Positions 6,120 to 56,372 of a stretch of 64,000 bases of DNA are shown here, in pieces. The stretch is from positions 434,001 to 498,000 of the forward strand of contig NZ_JACJSA010000002.1 in the NCBI RefSeq assembly GCF_014697545.1. The letters run 5' to 3'. Under the pieces are notes generated by a model. It saw nothing but the letters and a program-made list of their open reading frames with translations. It was not told where the DNA came from and ran no database searches. Numbering within the stretch: position 1 is the stretch's first letter; each line of letters opens with the position of its first letter. The position numbers and the translations under genes were made by a program. This DNA is from Oscillatoria sp. FACHB-1407. GTDB lineage: Bacteria > Cyanobacteriota > Cyanobacteriia > Elainellales > Elainellaceae.

Positions 6120-8135
6120 CTATTCCTTGGTTTCCTTAAAAGTCTTTTGGCTCCGCAGGTGTTCATGGATATAGCGATAGGGAGTTTGGTCCTCACCTTT
6201 CAATCCAATTAAGCTATAGAGCTGCACTAGATCCTGTTCCCGTCCTTTGAGTTGATGTTCCCCTACACAGACGGCATCAACGTGCTCTTTGACTAACTGA
6301 TACAGCGATTCAGTAATAAGAATGTCTGTCCAGAATTTGCGGGTCAACCCCTCAACCCGGCTAGCAACGTTAACTGCATCTCCAATCAGGGCATATTCGC
6401 GGCGTCGTACTGAGCCGATATCCCCTGCCAAAGCCTCGCCAAAGTTAATACCAATGCCGTTAAAGAACAAGACCTTGCCCTGTTGTTTCCATTGTTGATG
6501 CAACTTGACGAGTGCCCGTCTCATCCCTAACGCGGCTCGTACCGCATTTAATGCGTCGTTTTCTTCGCCTTGAGAAATGGGGGAGCCAAACTCTGCCATA
6601 ACCGCATCACCGATAAATTTATCAACCGTCCCCCCGGCATCCAAAATAGCTTCTACCATAGCGTTGAGGTAGTCGTTGAGTTGTTCGACGAGTTGTTCTG
6701 GCTCCAGTTGCAAAGAGAAGGTAGTAAACCCTCGAATATCACAAAACAGCACTGCCGCTCTGACTTTACGCCCCTTCAATAGAGCTTGATAAGCCTCTGA
6801 ATAGTTGGTCAAAATTTCATGAACGATCGGGGCTGCGACATAACGCTCTAGCGTTTGTCTCAACCGTAGTTGTTCTAACCGATTGCTAATCGCTCCGGTG
6901 GTCAAACTGGAGATGCCAGAAAGGGCGATCGCCACAACAGGTATAGCCGTTGGCACAATCAGATTAGCAACGGTGAAGCTGATATAGCCCAATGTGCCCC
7001 ACGCCAGGGCAAACCCCAGAGCAGCAATCATTTGAGAGTCCGGTCGCTTGAGAAAACGGTTAAACCCAATGCCAATGCCTGCTACCCCAATAAACACCAG
7101 CAAACCTCGCAGAGGAGCACTGGGAATCGCCTCACCAATGGCTCGATTTTCTAATAAAGAGGCGATCGCATTGGCGTGTAACTCGACTCCAGGCATCATT
7201 TCCGAAAAGGGAGTCCGAACAAAGTCTTGAAAATAACTTGCTGTTGGACCAACTACAACAATCTTGTCTCGAAAGGTTTGCTCTCGCAGGTGAAACTCCC
7301 AATTTGCAGGGTCAAGCACACTCCAAAACGAAACCCGCTTAAACGTTGCTGGAGGACCGTAGAAGAAAATATGTTCACCCGCAGGACGGACAGTAACCTG
7401 GGGATCGTCGGAGGGGCGACTGAGTTGTACAGTGGCAGCCGCAAACGAATCAATGCCCTCGCCCAAGCCCTGAGGAACAACTACTCGATCGATAAAAACT
7501 TCACCAAATCGGTAAACTCTGCCATCAGGATCAGGAGAAAAGTTAATCAATCCCAGATTTTGAGGGGTGGCTTCAAAATCAGGATTGGGGTTAACGATTT
7601 GCCCCAACTCCCCTTCGGGGGTACCAAAGGTTTCATACAAATTGGCTAAGACAACTCGATCGGGATATCGCTGTATCACGTCGCGCAGAACCAGGTCATC
7701 TTCCAGACCGTAGCTGCTGGGGTCTGCCAGGATGACATCTAGAGAAACCGATCGCGCCCCTGCTGCCAGGAGTTTTTCAATGACAACGGCATAGGCAGCC
7801 CGTCGCCAGGGCCAGGTTTCCAGTGGGGCAAATTCTGGATGACGGTCTGGATCGCGCTGATAGGTTTCCCCTTGAGATAGCGACTCCTGATCCATTGCCA
7901 GAATGACGATGTCATCTGGTGGGGAAACTGTCCCTCGAATCGAGAAAAAGAGAATTTGGGTTTGTCGTTCTAACCCTAGTGCAGGGATGAAATTAATGGC
8001 AGTGGCGATCGCCCCTAGTGATGCCCAAACTCCGACAAGCAAATAACTCATTTGCGTCAGATTAACCCATGCTGTTTTTGACTTTCTGCCTCGGTCGTTG
8101 ACGTGACCCTCTGGCGATCGCCCCATCCTTTGCAT
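6120..8135 (-). CDS. CHASE2 domain adenylate/guanylate cyclase (class III)
   Basis: A 671-residue membrane sensor-cyclase. A first membrane segment lies near residues 28-48. A CHASE2 extracytoplasmic sensor domain follows (~50-335, with DPDRHPEF and VDLIL-type strands), then about three membrane segments (~340-415), then a class III cyclase domain (~455-640). The cyclase has the first metal Asp in FCDIRGFTTFS, the second in DKFIGDAVMAEFGSP (with the purine-selecting Lys), and the transition-state Asn/Arg in NVASRVE. The second purine-selecting position, usually Thr in cyanobacterial YTxIGDAVN, is Ala here (YALIGDAVN), so ATP preference is probable but not proven. It lies upstream of nothing on its strand and downstream of the FecR gene, a common cyanobacterial pairing. 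Confidence 0.94.
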   Translation of the reverse strand: MQRMGRSPEGHVNDRGRKSKTAWVNLTQMSYLLVGVWASLGAIATAINFIPALGLERQTQILFFSIRGTVSPPDDIVILAMDQESLSQGETYQRDPDRHPEFAPLETWPWRRAAYAVVIEKLLAAGARSVSLDVILADPSSYGLEDDLVLRDVIQRYPDRVVLANLYETFGTPEGELGQIVNPNPDFEATPQNLGLINFSPDPDGRVYRFGEVFIDRVVVPQGLGEGIDSFAAATVQLSRPSDDPQVTVRPAGEHIFFYGPPATFKRVSFWSVLDPANWEFHLREQTFRDKIVVVGPTASYFQDFVRTPFSEMMPGVELHANAIASLLENRAIGEAIPSAPLRGLLVFIGVAGIGIGFNRFLKRPDSQMIAALGFALAWGTLGYISFTVANLIVPTAIPVVAIALSGISSLTTGAISNRLEQLRLRQTLERYVAAPIVHEILTNYSEAYQALLKGRKVRAAVLFCDIRGFTTFSLQLEPEQLVEQLNDYLNAMVEAILDAGGTVDKFIGDAVMAEFGSPISQGEENDALNAVRAALGMRRALVKLHQQWKQQGKVLFFNGIGINFGEALAGDIGSVRRREYALIGDAVNVASRVEGLTRKFWTDILITESLYQLVKEHVDAVCVGEHQLKGREQDLVQLYSLIGLKGEDQTPYRYIHEHLRSQKTFKETKE

Positions 8136-27294: not shown

Positions 27295-28098
27295 TTATCC
27301 TTGCGATCGCCGAAACAGATGGGAATGTTCGGGATTATAGAGGCGCGATCGGGCTTTTGCAGCGGTTAGGGCAGGACTAATTACATATAATGTCGTCCGA
27401 ATCAAGTTTTCTCGCTCGGTCACGGTTGCCATCTCACTCAGTGGCACAACCCAAATTTTCTCGTCTGACCAGCCAATGCGAAAACAAACTGCAACGGGGG
27501 TATCCGGGTCATAGTGCTCCATCAAGGCTGCTTGCGCCGACTCTACATGACGAGCACTGAGATAGAGACACAGACTGGCACGATGCGCCGCTAACGAGGC
27601 TAACTCCTCACTTGGAGGGACTTGAGTCCGACCGCTAATGCGCGTCAGGATAATCGTTTGCACCAACTCTGGCACGGTTAACTCGACCTGGAGCCGCGCC
27701 GCTGCCGCCTGAAAGGCACTGATGCCGGGAATCACCTCAAAGGGAATCTCAGCACTCGCCAATGCTTGAATCTGTTCATGAATGGCACTGTAGAGGCTGG
27801 GGTCACCCGAATGAAGCCGCACGACCGACTGGTGCGATCGCACCCGCTCAATCATCAACGGCAAAATCTCCTCTAGCGTTTTGTTAGCAGTACCGATCAC
27901 CTCCGCATCTGGGCGCACCATCTGCAACAAGGGTTTGGGCACCAGCGAATCGGCAAACAAAATCACATCCGCCTGAGCCAACAGCTTTTGCGCTTTGATC
28001 GTCAACAGATCCGGATCACCCGGTCCTGCTCCGACAATGTAAACTGCCGGAGCGAGCGCAGCAGATGCCTGCTGTTGAGTTTCAGCCAGTGTTTTCAT
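27295..28098 (-). CDS. cobM: Precorrin-4 C(11)-methyltransferase
   Basis: A 267-residue tetrapyrrole methylase of the CobM/CbiF type that methylates C-11 of the corrin ring from S-adenosylmethionine in cobalamin synthesis. Signatures seen: VYIVGAGPGDPDLLTIKA at ~19-36, ADVILFADSLV, VRLHSGDPSLYSAI and the EVIPGISAFQAAAA segment. Length fits. No other cob/cbi gene lies in the window, so the pathway is scattered, as is common in cyanobacteria. No cobalamin riboswitch was seen upstream; instead a small-RNA-like unit is divergently placed at 28198. Confidence 0.93.
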   Translation of the reverse strand: MKTLAETQQQASAALAPAVYIVGAGPGDPDLLTIKAQKLLAQADVILFADSLVPKPLLQMVRPDAEVIGTANKTLEEILPLMIERVRSHQSVVRLHSGDPSLYSAIHEQIQALASAEIPFEVIPGISAFQAAAARLQVELTVPELVQTIILTRISGRTQVPPSEELASLAAHRASLCLYLSARHVESAQAALMEHYDPDTPVAVCFRIGWSDEKIWVVPLSEMATVTERENLIRTTLYVISPALTAAKARSRLYNPEHSHLFRRSQG

Positions 28099-28197
28099 GA
28101 GTTAGATGTAACTTTAAGAAGTTGCCAATTTTGTGAAGAATGGGTAAACCATTCTCGTTATTCCGGAAACAATAACCATCCCTAGTAAGAGGGAATG

Positions 28198-28244
28198 GTA
28201 GATGCACCCTGATTCAAACCCCGGAGGAAACTTCGGGGTTTTTC
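28198..28244 (+). ncRNA. Putative small RNA A: 16-nt conserved 5' segment plus terminator
   Basis: GTAGATGCACCCTGAT (28198-28213) is followed at once by a Rho-independent terminator: AAACCCCG (28216-28223) pairs with CGGGGTTT (28234-28241), then TTTC. TAAGAG six bases before the G at 28198 could be a -10 box. An identical 16-mer in the same position relative to a terminator occurs at 55905. Two further hairpins (GTTATT..AATAAC and CCATCCCT..AGGGAATGG) lie just upstream, so the RNA may be longer. No coding frame is present. Confidence 0.6.
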
Positions 28245-28386
28245 TTTGCAATGATGCAGTCTTGCAAAAGACAAGTGTATCAAGATTGCCAGGATTAACA
28301 ACCCCAAAAATTGAGATCACTAAGAAGTCGGAGTTTTCTGAAAACTCCGACTTCTCTAACCCATGCTCAGACTTTTAAGCTCGTCT

Positions 28387-30288
28387 CTAGGTACGAGCAC
28401 TCAGCCCAATCAGGTTAAGCGGTGCAGGGGTAGTGCCGGGAGTTGTGCCCGTACCTGTGGTTGGTGTGGTGCTAACCGTCACCGTTCCCAAACTGGTTGC
28501 AACTCCGGTGGTCAAGTTGATGCTATACAGCGTGGAACCAGAGGTGGCGTATGCCGTGTTCACGCCACTAGCATCTGTAAAGATGTCAAAGCCACTGTTT
28601 GGTCCGAAATCAACACCCAGAGCACCTACGCTGAACAAGCTACCCGTGTTGGGAGACACAGGTGTTCCATCTGCGCTGCCTTGGCGCACCAAAACATCGA
28701 GGCTGGTGTCAATGCCAAACAGCGTTGTTGTGGCAGTGCCTGCAAAGTTATTGGTGTAGGCAACAGCCGTAACATTTGGATTGGTGCCAAACCGGGTGTC
28801 ATCTGTGGCGTATGCCAGAGCTGTGTCGGTTTGGGTGCCTGTGGTTGCCGTGTCGAAGTCTACGATCGCCCCTGTAATCGGATTCAACCGTGCATTTTCG
28901 TCGAGGTCACTGACAACCCGAATGCGATCGACGGTGGGGTTGAAGTCAATTCCCAAACTCGTGCCCGTTAGAGCCGGAGTGAAAGCAGTATTGCTCACTG
29001 CCGTCGCCGCTCCACTGGCCAGGTTGATGGTATAGAGCTTGTTGGCACTGCTGATTCCAAACAGTTCACCCGTTGCCGGACGAAAATCAATGCCGCGTAA
29101 GGTTTCTCCACTGGCTAACCCCGTGACGTTGATATTAACGGCTTTATCCAGTTTGTCGGGGTTAAAGGCAACTACAGCGTTGTTATCTGTTAAGCCAAAC
29201 AACCGCAGCGGAGCCGACGCAAAGTTGAGTGTGTACTCCACGGAGGTGTTAGTTGCGGCAGGGAAGACGCGCACAAAGTAAGTGCCTGCGGTGAGGCTCT
29301 GATTAATCAGGTCTTCGGTCGTGCCCGTGTTGCTCGACCTGCCGATTACCGTGCCTGTGCTGTTGAGTAGCTCCAGGTTGGCATCCGCAGACAATCCATT
29401 AAGTGCCAGATTGAGGTTGGTAGGAGAGTTGAGATTCACCCGGTAAAAGTCTTCTGGATCGCCAACTCCTACAAAGTCATCAAAATCATCGGTGCTGGGG
29501 GTAATGTTGATGGGACGTGCCGTTGTCGTGTCGTCATCATCAGTGCTGATCAGCAACGATTGGAAATTGATCCGGAGTCGATAACGAGTACCGCCGCCAC
29601 CACCACCGCCACGACCGAAGTCAATGCGAATGAAGTAGGTTCCGGCTTCCAGAATCTGGTTGATCTGCTCGGATAAATTGCCCCCTCTCGCGGAAAAGGC
29701 GATGCGCTGACGACGACTGTTAAAGATCGTGATGTTGGCGTTGCTACTCAACCCTTGCAGCAGTGTGGTGCAATTGCTGCGCGAGGTGAGGTCAAACCGA
29801 TAAAAATCGAAGCGATCGCCCCCGTTATCATCATCCCCATCATCATCGTCATCGCCAAAGCTGCCGATGGAGTCATTAAAGACAAAGCTGCCTTTGAGCT
29901 TGTTTTTGCCAGTGCGGATGCGGAATGCCCGCGAAAAGCTATTCCCTGCATCCTGGCTGACAGAACAGACAAATCTGTAATTGGTATCACCCTCAATTCG
30001 ATTCACCCGAACAAAGTAAGTCCCTGCGGCGAGTTGCCGACTAATCGACTCGTTATCGTCATCATCCTCTTCGGAGGAAACGATTTCACGTCCTCGGCTA
30101 TCATACAGAGCCAAATCTGCATTGCCTTCTAGCCCACTGATCAAGCAAGTGAAATTGCTGCGGGCTGTGAGTCTGATTCGATAAAAGTCGAGCTTGTCAA
30201 ATTCAGCGAGGGATTCTCGAACAACAAACCGACCGTTTCTAAAACGAATATCGGAGGCATCCGAAAACCGATTACCTGCATCTGTCAT
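28387..30288 (-). CDS. DUF4394 protein with N-terminal PPC-like beta domains
   Basis: A 633-residue protein. About three bacterial pre-peptidase C-terminal (PPC)-like beta-sandwich domains fill residues ~1-350; each ends in AGTYFVR or AGTYFIRI and has an FYRIRL or FYRFDL strand, separated by Asp-rich loops. A DUF4394 beta-propeller-like domain occupies ~360-620 (LFGLTDNNAVVAF, GIDFRPATGELFG, DRIRVVSDLDENARLN). No signal peptide is visible at the N-terminus, so export would be by a non-Sec route or not occur. The function of DUF4394 is unknown; extracellular or surface localisation is inferred from domain company. Confidence 0.87.
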   Translation of the reverse strand: MTDAGNRFSDASDIRFRNGRFVVRESLAEFDKLDFYRIRLTARSNFTCLISGLEGNADLALYDSRGREIVSSEEDDDDNESISRQLAAGTYFVRVNRIEGDTNYRFVCSVSQDAGNSFSRAFRIRTGKNKLKGSFVFNDSIGSFGDDDDDGDDDNGGDRFDFYRFDLTSRSNCTTLLQGLSSNANITIFNSRRQRIAFSARGGNLSEQINQILEAGTYFIRIDFGRGGGGGGGTRYRLRINFQSLLISTDDDDTTTARPINITPSTDDFDDFVGVGDPEDFYRVNLNSPTNLNLALNGLSADANLELLNSTGTVIGRSSNTGTTEDLINQSLTAGTYFVRVFPAATNTSVEYTLNFASAPLRLFGLTDNNAVVAFNPDKLDKAVNINVTGLASGETLRGIDFRPATGELFGISSANKLYTINLASGAATAVSNTAFTPALTGTSLGIDFNPTVDRIRVVSDLDENARLNPITGAIVDFDTATTGTQTDTALAYATDDTRFGTNPNVTAVAYTNNFAGTATTTLFGIDTSLDVLVRQGSADGTPVSPNTGSLFSVGALGVDFGPNSGFDIFTDASGVNTAYATSGSTLYSINLTTGVATSLGTVTVSTTPTTGTGTTPGTTPAPLNLIGLSART

Positions 30289-32202: not shown

Positions 32203-32457
32203 TCAAACCTCTGGCAACACTCCGATTGGCGGTGGGATAACAGAGTCTACTGGACGAGAGCCAATCGGTGGTGGAATGTTGAGCTTAACGGGAGTTGACC
32301 CAATTGGAGGGGTCACAGTATAGGTTTGATAAATTTCAACGGTCACGCCACCAATCGGCGGTGGAATGGGCTGATCGACTGGATTCACGGGAGGTGCCCA
32401 GCCAATTGGAGGCGGAATGGGGCGATAGTGATCAATGCTCATAGTGTCAGGTGGCAT
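32203..32457 (-). CDS. Short protein with five spaced (P)PPIG motifs, unknown function
   Basis: An 84-residue protein starting MPPDTMSIDHY (or, from the second ATG at 32442, MSIDHY). It consists of repeated IPPPIG blocks: the Gly residues are at 19, 36, 53, 66 and 79, giving spacings of 17, 17, 13 and 13. The third copy is TPPIG. There is no Cys, no signal peptide and no membrane segment; the rest is rich in Val, Pro and Thr. I do not recognise a family. The regular design suggests a structural or binding repeat (polyproline) or a precursor peptide, but no modifying enzyme is adjacent. Neither start has a strong ribosome-binding site. Confidence 0.6.
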   Translation of the reverse strand: MPPDTMSIDHYRPIPPPIGWAPPVNPVDQPIPPPIGGVTVEIYQTYTVTPPIGSTPVKLNIPPPIGSRPVDSVIPPPIGVLPEV

Positions 32458-51171: not shown

Positions 51172-51478
51172 AGAAAGAAGAGGGAAAAAAGAAGAGAGAA
51201 GAAGGATAAAGGCTGAAGGATGAAGGATTAAAGGGAAGAGAGAAAAAAGAAGAAGGAAAAGGATGAATGATGAAGGATAAAAGGAAACCGTGTAGGGTGC
51301 TAGGGGCATGGATGCAAGATTAGACAGGTTGGGTGATAACCACTGACTATTGACCACTGACTATTGACCATTAACCATTGACCATTGACCATTAACCACT
51401 GTCTCCTGATTCCTGGCTCCTGACTCCTGACCACTAACCATTGACCATCAACCACTGACTATTCCCCACTCCCCACTC
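51172..51478. repeat. Heptamer tracts between nadD and pncB
   Basis: 51172-51275 is GAAGAGA/GGATGAAG-rich; 51340-51478 is a run of ACTGACTATTGACC and ATTGACCATTAACC units, i.e. CCATTGA-type heptamers, ending in CTCCCCACTCCC. Two distinct STRR types meet here, inside an otherwise compact NAD operon. No gene lies in the tract. Confidence 0.85.
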
Positions 51479-54216: not shown

Positions 54217-55704
54217 ATGACTACCGCCGCACCCGTCAAAACTGAGTACGAAGCTATCATCGGGTTAGAAACCCATTGCCAACTCAAAACGGACACCAAA
54301 ATCTTTTGTAATTGCTCCACGTCATTTAACACTCCCCCCAACGAGAACGTTTGCCCAATCTGCATGGGGATGCCGGGAGTGTTGCCCGTTCTCAACCAGA
54401 GCGTGCTGGAATATGCAGTGAAAGCAGGCTTGGCACTGAACTGCACAATCGCCGACCACAGCAAATTTGACCGCAAGCAATACTTTTATCCTGACCTGCC
54501 CAAAAACTACCAAATCTCGCAATACGACCTGCCAATCGCGGAACATGGTTGGCTAGAGATCGAGTTGGTTGACAAGGGCAGCGGCACTGCCACACGTAAA
54601 CGCATTGGCATCACCCGTCTGCATATGGAAGAAGATGCAGGCAAGCTTGTCCACGCTGGCAGTGAGCGGCTCTCAGGCTCAACCTATTCCCTCGTAGACT
54701 TCAACCGCACTGGCGTTCCCCTGGTCGAAATCGTCTCTGAACCCGACATGCGATCGGGTCGTGAAGCGGCAGAATACGCCCAGGAGTTACGCCGCATTTT
54801 GCTGTACCTGGGGGTCAGCGACGGCAACATGCAGGAAGGCTCCCTCCGCTGTGATGTCAACATCTCTGTGCGTCCTGTGGGAACTGAGAAGTTTGGCACG
54901 AAGGTCGAGATCAAAAACATGAACTCGTTCAACGCGATCGAACGGGCAATCAATTACGAGATCGAACGGCAAATCCAGGCGATCGAAGCGGGTGAGCGCA
55001 TTGTTCAAGAGACGCGCCTGTGGGAAGAAGGGGCACAACGCACCATCAGTATGCGCGTCAAGGAAGGCTCCAGCGATTACCGCTACTTTCCGGAGCCAGA
55101 CCTGGGCCCCATCGAAGTTTCCCCAGAGCAACTAGAGGCGTGGCGATCGCAACTGCCTGAGTTACCCGCTCAAAAACGGCACCGCTATGAAAATGAATTG
55201 GGCTTGTCTGCCTATGATGCGCGTGTGCTCACCGATGACCGGGCGATCGCGGAATACTTTGAGACAACTGTCACTGCCGGAGCACCCGCCAAACAAGCGG
55301 CTAACTGGATCATGGGGGATATCAGTGGCTATCTCAACAACGAAAAGAAGAGCATTGGCGACATTGCCCTCAAGCCTGAAACCCTGGCAGAAATGATTGG
55401 TTTGATCGAAGACAACACCATCAGCAGCAAGATTGGTAAGGATATCCTGCCAGAGTTGCTGGTGCAGGGTGGCTCTGCCAAAGCTCTGGTCGAAAGCAAA
55501 GGACTGATTCAGATCTCGGATACAGGGGCGATCGAAGCGGCGATCGATGCTGTCATCGCTGCCTTCCCGGATGAGTTGGAGAAGTACCGGGGTGGCAAAA
55601 CGAAACTTTTGGGGTTCTTTGTGGGTCAAGTCATGAAGCAGACGGGTGGACGGGCTGACCCGAAGCTGACAAACCAGCTTTTACTTCAAAAATTGAATGG
55701 TTAA
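54217..55704 (+). CDS. gatB: Asp-tRNA(Asn)/Glu-tRNA(Gln) amidotransferase subunit B
   Basis: The 495-residue GatB subunit of the GatCAB complex, which amidates misacylated Glu-tRNA(Gln) and, where needed, Asp-tRNA(Asn). The start [15 protein letters not shown] is the family landmark; [32 protein letters not shown] and [14 protein letters not shown] follow. The C-terminal YqeY-like tRNA-binding domain (~345-495) ends [17 protein letters not shown]. gatA and gatC are not in the window, as usual for cyanobacteria. TACAATATAA at 54181 may be its promoter -10. A terminator is at 55731. Confidence 0.97.
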
Positions 55705-55769: not shown

Positions 55770-55812
55770 GCAGCCTGGTTGCGGCATTTAATCGATCTCA
55801 GAGAGAAAAACT

Positions 55813-55846
55813 CCAGGGAATTTTACAAAAATCCCTGGTTTTTTTT
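55813..55846 (+). terminator. Second strong terminator downstream of gatB
   Basis: CCAGGGA (55813-55819) pairs with TCCCTGG (55832-55838), followed by eight T residues. Because the gatB terminator already lies upstream, this second one may end a separate short transcript. Confidence 0.8.
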
Positions 55847-55904
55847 GAAAAAGTTTCATTTAGGGGGTGACACCCCCCATACCTCCAATGGCATAATGTG
55901 ATAA

Positions 55905-55957
55905 GTAGATGCACCCTGATGGTAGGGAGAGTTAATCAAATGGCTCTCCCTTTTTTT
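55905..55957 (+). ncRNA. Putative small RNA B: same 16-nt 5' segment plus terminator
   Basis: GTAGATGCACCCTGAT (55905-55920) is directly followed by a terminator: AGGGAGAG (55924-55931) pairs with CTCTCCCT (55944-55951) and a run of seven T residues. TAATGT a few bases upstream could be the -10. The hairpin differs completely from that of the unit at 28198 while the 16 bases are identical, the pattern expected of a conserved target-binding seed. No coding frame is present. Confidence 0.65.
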
Positions 55958-55984
55958 ATTGCTTGAGGCTAAGCGCAAGGGATT

Positions 55985-56372
55985 GGGGAGAGTGAGAGGT
56001 CAAGAGTCAGGGGTCAATAGTCAATAGTCAATGGTCAACAGTCAGTGGTCAGTGGTTAGTGGTCAATGGTTAGTGGTCAGTAGTCAGGGGTTAATAGCCG
56101 TAATCAGTGGGTAACGATCGACCCTTGAAGAGCCACCTCAAAGATGAGCCAGCTACACCACAAACCACATACGATTGAGAGTTAACGATTGACCATCAAC
56201 CATCAACGATTGACTATTGACCATCAGCCATTGACTATTGACCATCAGCCATTGACCATTGACCATCAGCCATTGACCATTGACCATCAACCATTGACCA
56301 TCAACCATTGACCATTGACCATCAACCATTGACCATCAACCATTGACCATTGACCATCAGCCATTGACAATC
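55985..56372. repeat. Large CCATTGA/CCATCAA heptamer tract upstream of ffh
   Basis: 55985-56095 holds GTCAATA/GTCAATG/GTCAGTG units in one orientation; 56170-56372 is an almost continuous array of CCATTGA, CCATCAA and CCATCAG units in the other. The two halves are complementary and could form a very long hairpin. It is an STRR-class tract. The remainder up to 56528 is ffh upstream DNA. Confidence 0.9.

Follow-up and report, generated by a model that had tools for sequence, protein, structure and literature searches.

Sibling small RNA genes with one 5' seed and two promoter classes, NsiR1 and a HetR-type class 2, in Oscillatoria sp. FACHB-1407 and other cyanobacteria

In a 64-kb stretch of the Oscillatoria sp. 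FACHB-1407 genome (the window, that is, the whole of the DNA analysed), the 16-nt sequence GTAGATGCACCCTGAT is found twice on the + strand, at 28198-28213 (copy A) and 55905-55920 (copy B). The question raised by this locus is whether the two sites encode sibling small RNAs that keep one seed while their terminators drift, as the original prediction proposed, or share the 16-mer by chance. The repeat is exact, as had been noticed, and the 16-mer is followed in both copies, after a gap of 2-3 nt, by an 11-pair hairpin and a T-run; the two hairpins proved to be unrelated in sequence. No third site was found elsewhere in the window at up to two mismatches. By our estimate, chance alone would yield about one shared pair in a stretch of 64 kb, and sharing of the 16-mer was rejected as stand-alone evidence because the window holds 21 direct repeats of at least 16 nt spaced more than 500 bp apart.

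The significance of the pair comes from the whole host genome (8.13 Mb), where six exact copies, dispersed on five contigs, all stand directly before terminators (6/6). The same genome contained no match with one mismatch and five with two mismatches, and the reversed pattern, used as a control, matched once with up to two mismatches allowed. A mobile element as the source of the copies is unsupported: the copies differ in their flanks and terminators, and at three of the six positions (those at cobM, gatB and hetF) the arrangement recurs in other genomes. Judged from sequence, both sites of the window are genes for noncoding RNAs, with predicted transcripts of about 47-55 nt carrying the seed at the 5' end and, in the 3' part, little beyond the terminator.

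Copy A, the NsiR1 family and the host

Copy A (28196-28246, + strand; predicted transcript of about 47-51 nt) scored 49.8 bits with the Rfam covariance model RF02399, above the gathering score of 39, and by this score it is a new member of the known family NsiR1. The Rfam search that had been proposed gave a family name to copy A only, copy B reaching 32.9 bits, below the gathering score. With this model, five host copies were above the cut-off and copy B ranked sixth. The seed of copy A probably lies at the 5' end or within 2 nt of it, a start derived from the spacing to the DIF1 motif TCCGGA (28162-28167, + strand), which begins 36 nt before the seed in the same register as in class-1 copies elsewhere. 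This promoter belongs to the DIF1 type and has no classical -10. The -10 boxes first suggested, TAAGAG for copy A and TAATGT for copy B, were imprecise; an alignment of class-2 upstream regions, with a consensus TATACT at -13 to -8, puts the element of copy B at CATAAT (55892-55897, + strand). The terminator hairpin of copy A spans 28216-28241 (+ strand), and the fold of 28196-28246 has an energy of -19.4 kcal/mol.

The cobM gene (precorrin-4 C11-methyltransferase, 27295-28098, - strand; TIGR01465, 333 bits) is divergent from copy A at a distance of about 100 bp, and this layout recurs, among the matches listed, in six other loci, including Roseofilum, Nodosilinea and Spirulina. On the other strand, the region 28387-30288 downstream of copy A encodes a protein with three matches to the pre-peptidase C-terminal domain and one to DUF4394, and a short ORF of PPPIG repeats is present at 32203-32457.

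A profile search of the host genome detected HetR (588 bits) and a HetF-like protein (685.6 bits, below the curated cut-off of 1200 bits). A PatX-like short ORF with RGSGR near its end precedes hetR, and TCCTGA lies upstream of this ORF. A second HetR-like gene (C5:198779-199645), with a permease-like ORF beside it, reached 382 bits, under the 489-bit cut-off. The nifH gene was found with 468 bits, and in a tree of GatB the sequence from the window fell outside the fully supported clade of the heterocystous Nostocales. From nifH and this placement, the host is most likely a filamentous nitrogen fixer that forms no heterocysts.

The closest known system is NsiR1 of Nostoc PCC 7120. There, developing heterocysts express the RNA under the control of HetR, and one of its copies runs antisense to the leader of hetF. 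By pairing, the RNA lowers the translation of hetF and of alr3234, an effect shown in Nostoc only (PMC9045159, PMC8406250). Copy A resembles this system by its Rfam score, its DIF1 promoter and a short RNA ending in a terminator, and the host resembles it by having multiple copies, one of them divergent from hetF. The arrangement is different: Nostoc, which is heterocystous, has 12 tandem copies upstream of hetF, whereas the host, outside the heterocystous clade, has five class-1 copies on five contigs, with a single copy (on contig C35) divergent from hetF. The tandem array is a feature of Nostoc and is not demanded by the Rfam family. Copy B departs further from Nostoc NsiR1, by its score and by another promoter element. 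The NsiR1-like RNA162 of Limnospira indica PCC 8005 (57 nt) also comes from a cyanobacterium without heterocysts, but a single gene was reported there and no promoter classes were distinguished (PMC8400943); two surveyed genomes that we guess to be Limnospira-like each have three DIF1-type and two box-type copies.

Copy B and the two promoter classes

In copy B (55903-55958, + strand; predicted transcript of about 53 nt), no DIF1 promoter was found and a HetR-site-like palindrome, GGGGGTGACACCCCC, takes its place at 55863-55877 (+ strand), centred at -35. This palindrome is the sole exact copy in the genome, and the six host promoters divide into five with TCC[GT]GA and one with the palindrome. 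Both its position and its sequence are conserved among class-2 copies. It contains the GGGN5CCC core of the HetR operator and is, by sequence, a candidate HetR site. The core is shared with the HetR operators of Anabaena hetP and hetZ (PMC4192349, PMC7377430), and the hetP site GAGGGGTCTAACCCCTC (PMC4192349) resembles the class-2 box, copy B matching it at 11 of 17 positions; the class-2 box differs from these operators in occupying the -35 slot of a small-RNA promoter. The terminator hairpin of copy B spans 55924-55951 (+ strand). Upstream lies gatB (54217-55704, + strand; TIGR00133, 640.7 bits), and the gap between them contains a terminator-like hairpin (55811-55848, + strand; -11.7 kcal/mol) followed by eight T, which suggests that copy B has its own promoter. 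Short-repeat arrays of the TTGACCATCAACCA type, with GTCAGTGGTCAATGG on the other strand, adjoin copy B (55998-56370) and are also found about 5 kb upstream (51373-51460).

An exact scan of bacterial and archaeal genomes with the 16-mer gave at least 189 occurrences in at least 117 stretches. Among the matches listed, 178 of the 189 were followed by a hairpin and a T-run, and this recurrence in many genomes before diverse terminators supports the view that these are sibling small RNAs whose seed is conserved. The listed matches are cyanobacterial apart from three, and they come from heterocystous Nostocales and from filamentous forms without heterocysts, the latter including Leptolyngbya, Symploca, Spirulina, Microcoleus, Lyngbya and Roseofilum. 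The three matches from other phyla (L047, L050 and L059) are without terminators and were taken as chance. In a few genomes the seed varies slightly (ATAGATG..., ...ACCTTGAT).

Two classes of promoter were distinguished by their upstream elements. Class 1 (NsiR1, including copy A) has the DIF1 motif TCC[GT]GA starting at -37/-36 from the seed, and class 2 (including copy B) has the HetR-site-like box GGGGTNNNACCCC centred at -35. With DIF1 called as TCCGGA at no more than one mismatch and the box at no fewer than 8 of 10 positions, the 189 occurrences and the six host copies (n = 195, among the matches listed) gave 125 copies with DIF1, 51 with the box, none with both and 19 with neither. The classes were also called from the terminator alone, with duplicates dropped: copies with a GGAGAG...CTCTCC terminator had the box in 40/47 and DIF1 in 0/47, and copies with other terminators had DIF1 in 112/128 and the box in 8 (among the matches listed), background rates in this comparison of box and DIF1 being 0.9% and 5.3%. 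At least 12 of 17 positions of the hetP HetR site were matched in 62% of the GGAGAG-type upstream regions versus 0.5% of random stretches. DIF1 is located at -35 (PMC6133370, PMC7377430); as both elements fill the -35 slot, a transcription start at the seed or close to it is probable. Baaleninema, genome G279 and others (L057, L115, L139, L239, L243-L245, L281 and L282) have a third terminator subtype, GGCAACGCC...GGGCGTTTT, combined with the common seed and a HetR-like box.

In the host genome, 229 places match the box core GGGGTNNNACCCC, most of them belonging to a few recurring palindromes, and the core was rejected as a genome-wide marker of HetR; because of this frequency, the case for a HetR site rests on the fixed register across genomes and not on the motif alone. 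Among the recurring host palindromes are GGGGTGGAACCCC and GGGGTTTCACCCC, for example at C1:87243 and C1:115630. One could thus read copies A and B as plain dispersed NsiR1 paralogues, the class-2 palindrome being fortuitous or structural and the promoter difference without regulatory meaning. Similar palindromes are indeed frequent in the host, the seed is common to both copies and the NsiR1 model scores both, but the palindrome keeps a fixed register and is missing from nearly all DIF1 copies, and class 2 is set apart by a distinct type of terminator and by its recurrence 3' of gatB.

A model of class 2 (R1) was built from 38 class-2 RNAs with the promoter left out. The terminator helix is paired at 95.6% in these 38 sequences, with compensatory changes at four of nine pairs, and the 5' stem is not conserved between class 1 and class 2. 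Copy B, which belongs to the training set, scored 72.5 bits with R1, and copy A 22.4 bits. Among the matches listed, 24 class-2 loci, that of copy B included, are situated directly 3' of gatB and 17 are situated 5' of argJ, in each case on the strand of the neighbouring gene, argJ being identified by reading its sequence and not by a family search. Such neighbours would fit a mainly cis-acting RNA, namely a leader, an attenuator or a 3' element of gatB or argJ. We regard this as very unlikely: the RNA has its own terminator, copy B comes after the hairpin that follows gatB, the next gene after copy B is ffh (571 bp away) and not argJ, at 18 class-2 loci (among the matches listed) the compared ORFs include neither gatB nor argJ, and the seed is identical to that of the unlinked class-1 RNAs.

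Joint distribution with HetR and a seed complement upstream of hetF

We then compared the distribution of these RNAs with that of HetR in 386 cyanobacterial genomes, which are related, so that the counts are not independent. HetR_C was detected in 80 genomes and NsiR1, with the RF02399 model, which is independent of the present analysis, also in 80. NsiR1 was present in 78 of the 80 genomes with HetR versus two of the 306 without; the exceptions are G108 and G133 (HetR without NsiR1) and G279 and G358 (NsiR1 without HetR), and 304 genomes have neither. The class-2 model R1 (E <= 1e-4) matched in 87 genomes, G108 and G133 among them. With either class counted, 80/80 HetR genomes and 10/306 HetR-less genomes are positive, figures to be read with the knowledge that some surveyed genomes supplied R1 sequences and that weak R1 matches may be class-1 RNAs.

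The box follows the same distribution. It is present in 81 of 91 fetched GGAGAG-type copies from HetR genomes (67 of 73 genomes) and absent in eight of nine genomes without detected HetR, G279 alone having it. Microcystis, Hydrococcus and G055, all three without HetR, retain the seed exactly, together with a terminator resembling that of class 2, but have no box; seven genomes are called Microcystis-like because their copies match Microcystis records. HetR was not found in G279 even with the full-length model, although this genome has 13 NsiR1-model matches, many copies with boxes and DIF1-like motifs (L209, L239, L243-L245, L262, L289 and L290), and a missing piece of the assembly is a possible reason. 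The absence of the box where HetR is missing also speaks against plain paralogues with a meaningless palindrome, a reading that we consider rather unlikely.

Concerning a target, the host copy on C35 is divergent from the HetF homologue, a layout seen in ten loci among the matches listed. As this copy is antisense upstream of hetF, the region complements the seed of all six copies exactly (L030:6441-6456, on the hetF strand). The longest ATG-opened ORF in the hetF frame has its first codon at 6793, and this frame is already open 174 nt before that position, so that the distance from the complement to the start codon downstream of it is about 165 to 336 nt; in Nostoc, transcription of hetF starts at -256 (PMC8406250). 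If the host hetF leader extends to the complement, all six RNAs could pair there, and such pairing would explain the fixed seed despite the drifting terminators. It would not account for retention in Microcystis, which suggests another target. As a reservation, the Nostoc NsiR1 versions differ in target strength, so pairing need not take place through the seed. The target search suggested with the original prediction thus gave an exact complement at hetF, while no extended trans target was called in the host genome, the two-mismatch matches being near the control level.

The 16-mer may instead be a 5' protein-binding or RNA-stability element and not an mRNA-pairing seed. Its near-invariance across the phylum, HetR-less Microcystis included, and the lack of a strong extended complement elsewhere in the host would agree with this. 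We nevertheless judge a purely protein-binding or stabilizing role unlikely in view of the exact complement upstream of hetF, of repression by pairing by Nostoc NsiR1 (PMC9045159) and of the 5' stem, which differs between the classes.

A seed-RNA pool as a candidate output of HetR

The explanation that we favour, with a probability of about 0.7, is that of multicopy sibling RNAs with a common 5' seed, driven both from DIF1 promoters and directly by HetR, which repress their targets by base pairing. DIF1 promoters of Anabaena are HetZ-dependent, and HetZ is itself a HetR target (PMC7377430). Copy A, as NsiR1, would be driven in the same manner from its DIF1 promoter, and copy B, with the HetR-type operator in its -35 slot, would probably have HetR as its direct controller, so that the HetR cascade would supply a single pool of seed RNA through two branches. 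Pairing of the seed with mRNAs would lower their translation, hetF being a likely shared target.

A literature search with the sequence gave no match, and neither class 2, with its locus and HetR-type promoter, nor the joint occurrence with HetR was found in the literature searched, in which the founding NsiR1 papers were not included; class 2 appears to be new, its priority being uncertain. For annotation, it would represent a correction, as the class-2 gene falls under the Rfam cut-off and is missed, yet is about as widespread as NsiR1.

In a wider reading, which we advance tentatively and hold to be somewhat less than an even chance, the seed RNA would not be heterocyst-specific and would be an ancient, near-obligatory output of HetR in multicellular cyanobacteria, reached through two independent promoters (DIF1 and the direct HetR site), with feedback on HetF; the class-2 gene would outlive the HetR site in HetR-less unicellular lineages, implying a further ancestral target. 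Deletions of hetR are available in the non-heterocystous Leptolyngbya BL0902 (PMC11298460). By tracking HetR in 80/80 genomes with DIF1 and HetR-type promoters, the seed RNA is a candidate shared output of HetR, and it bears on the role of HetR in filamentous cyanobacteria that form no heterocysts.
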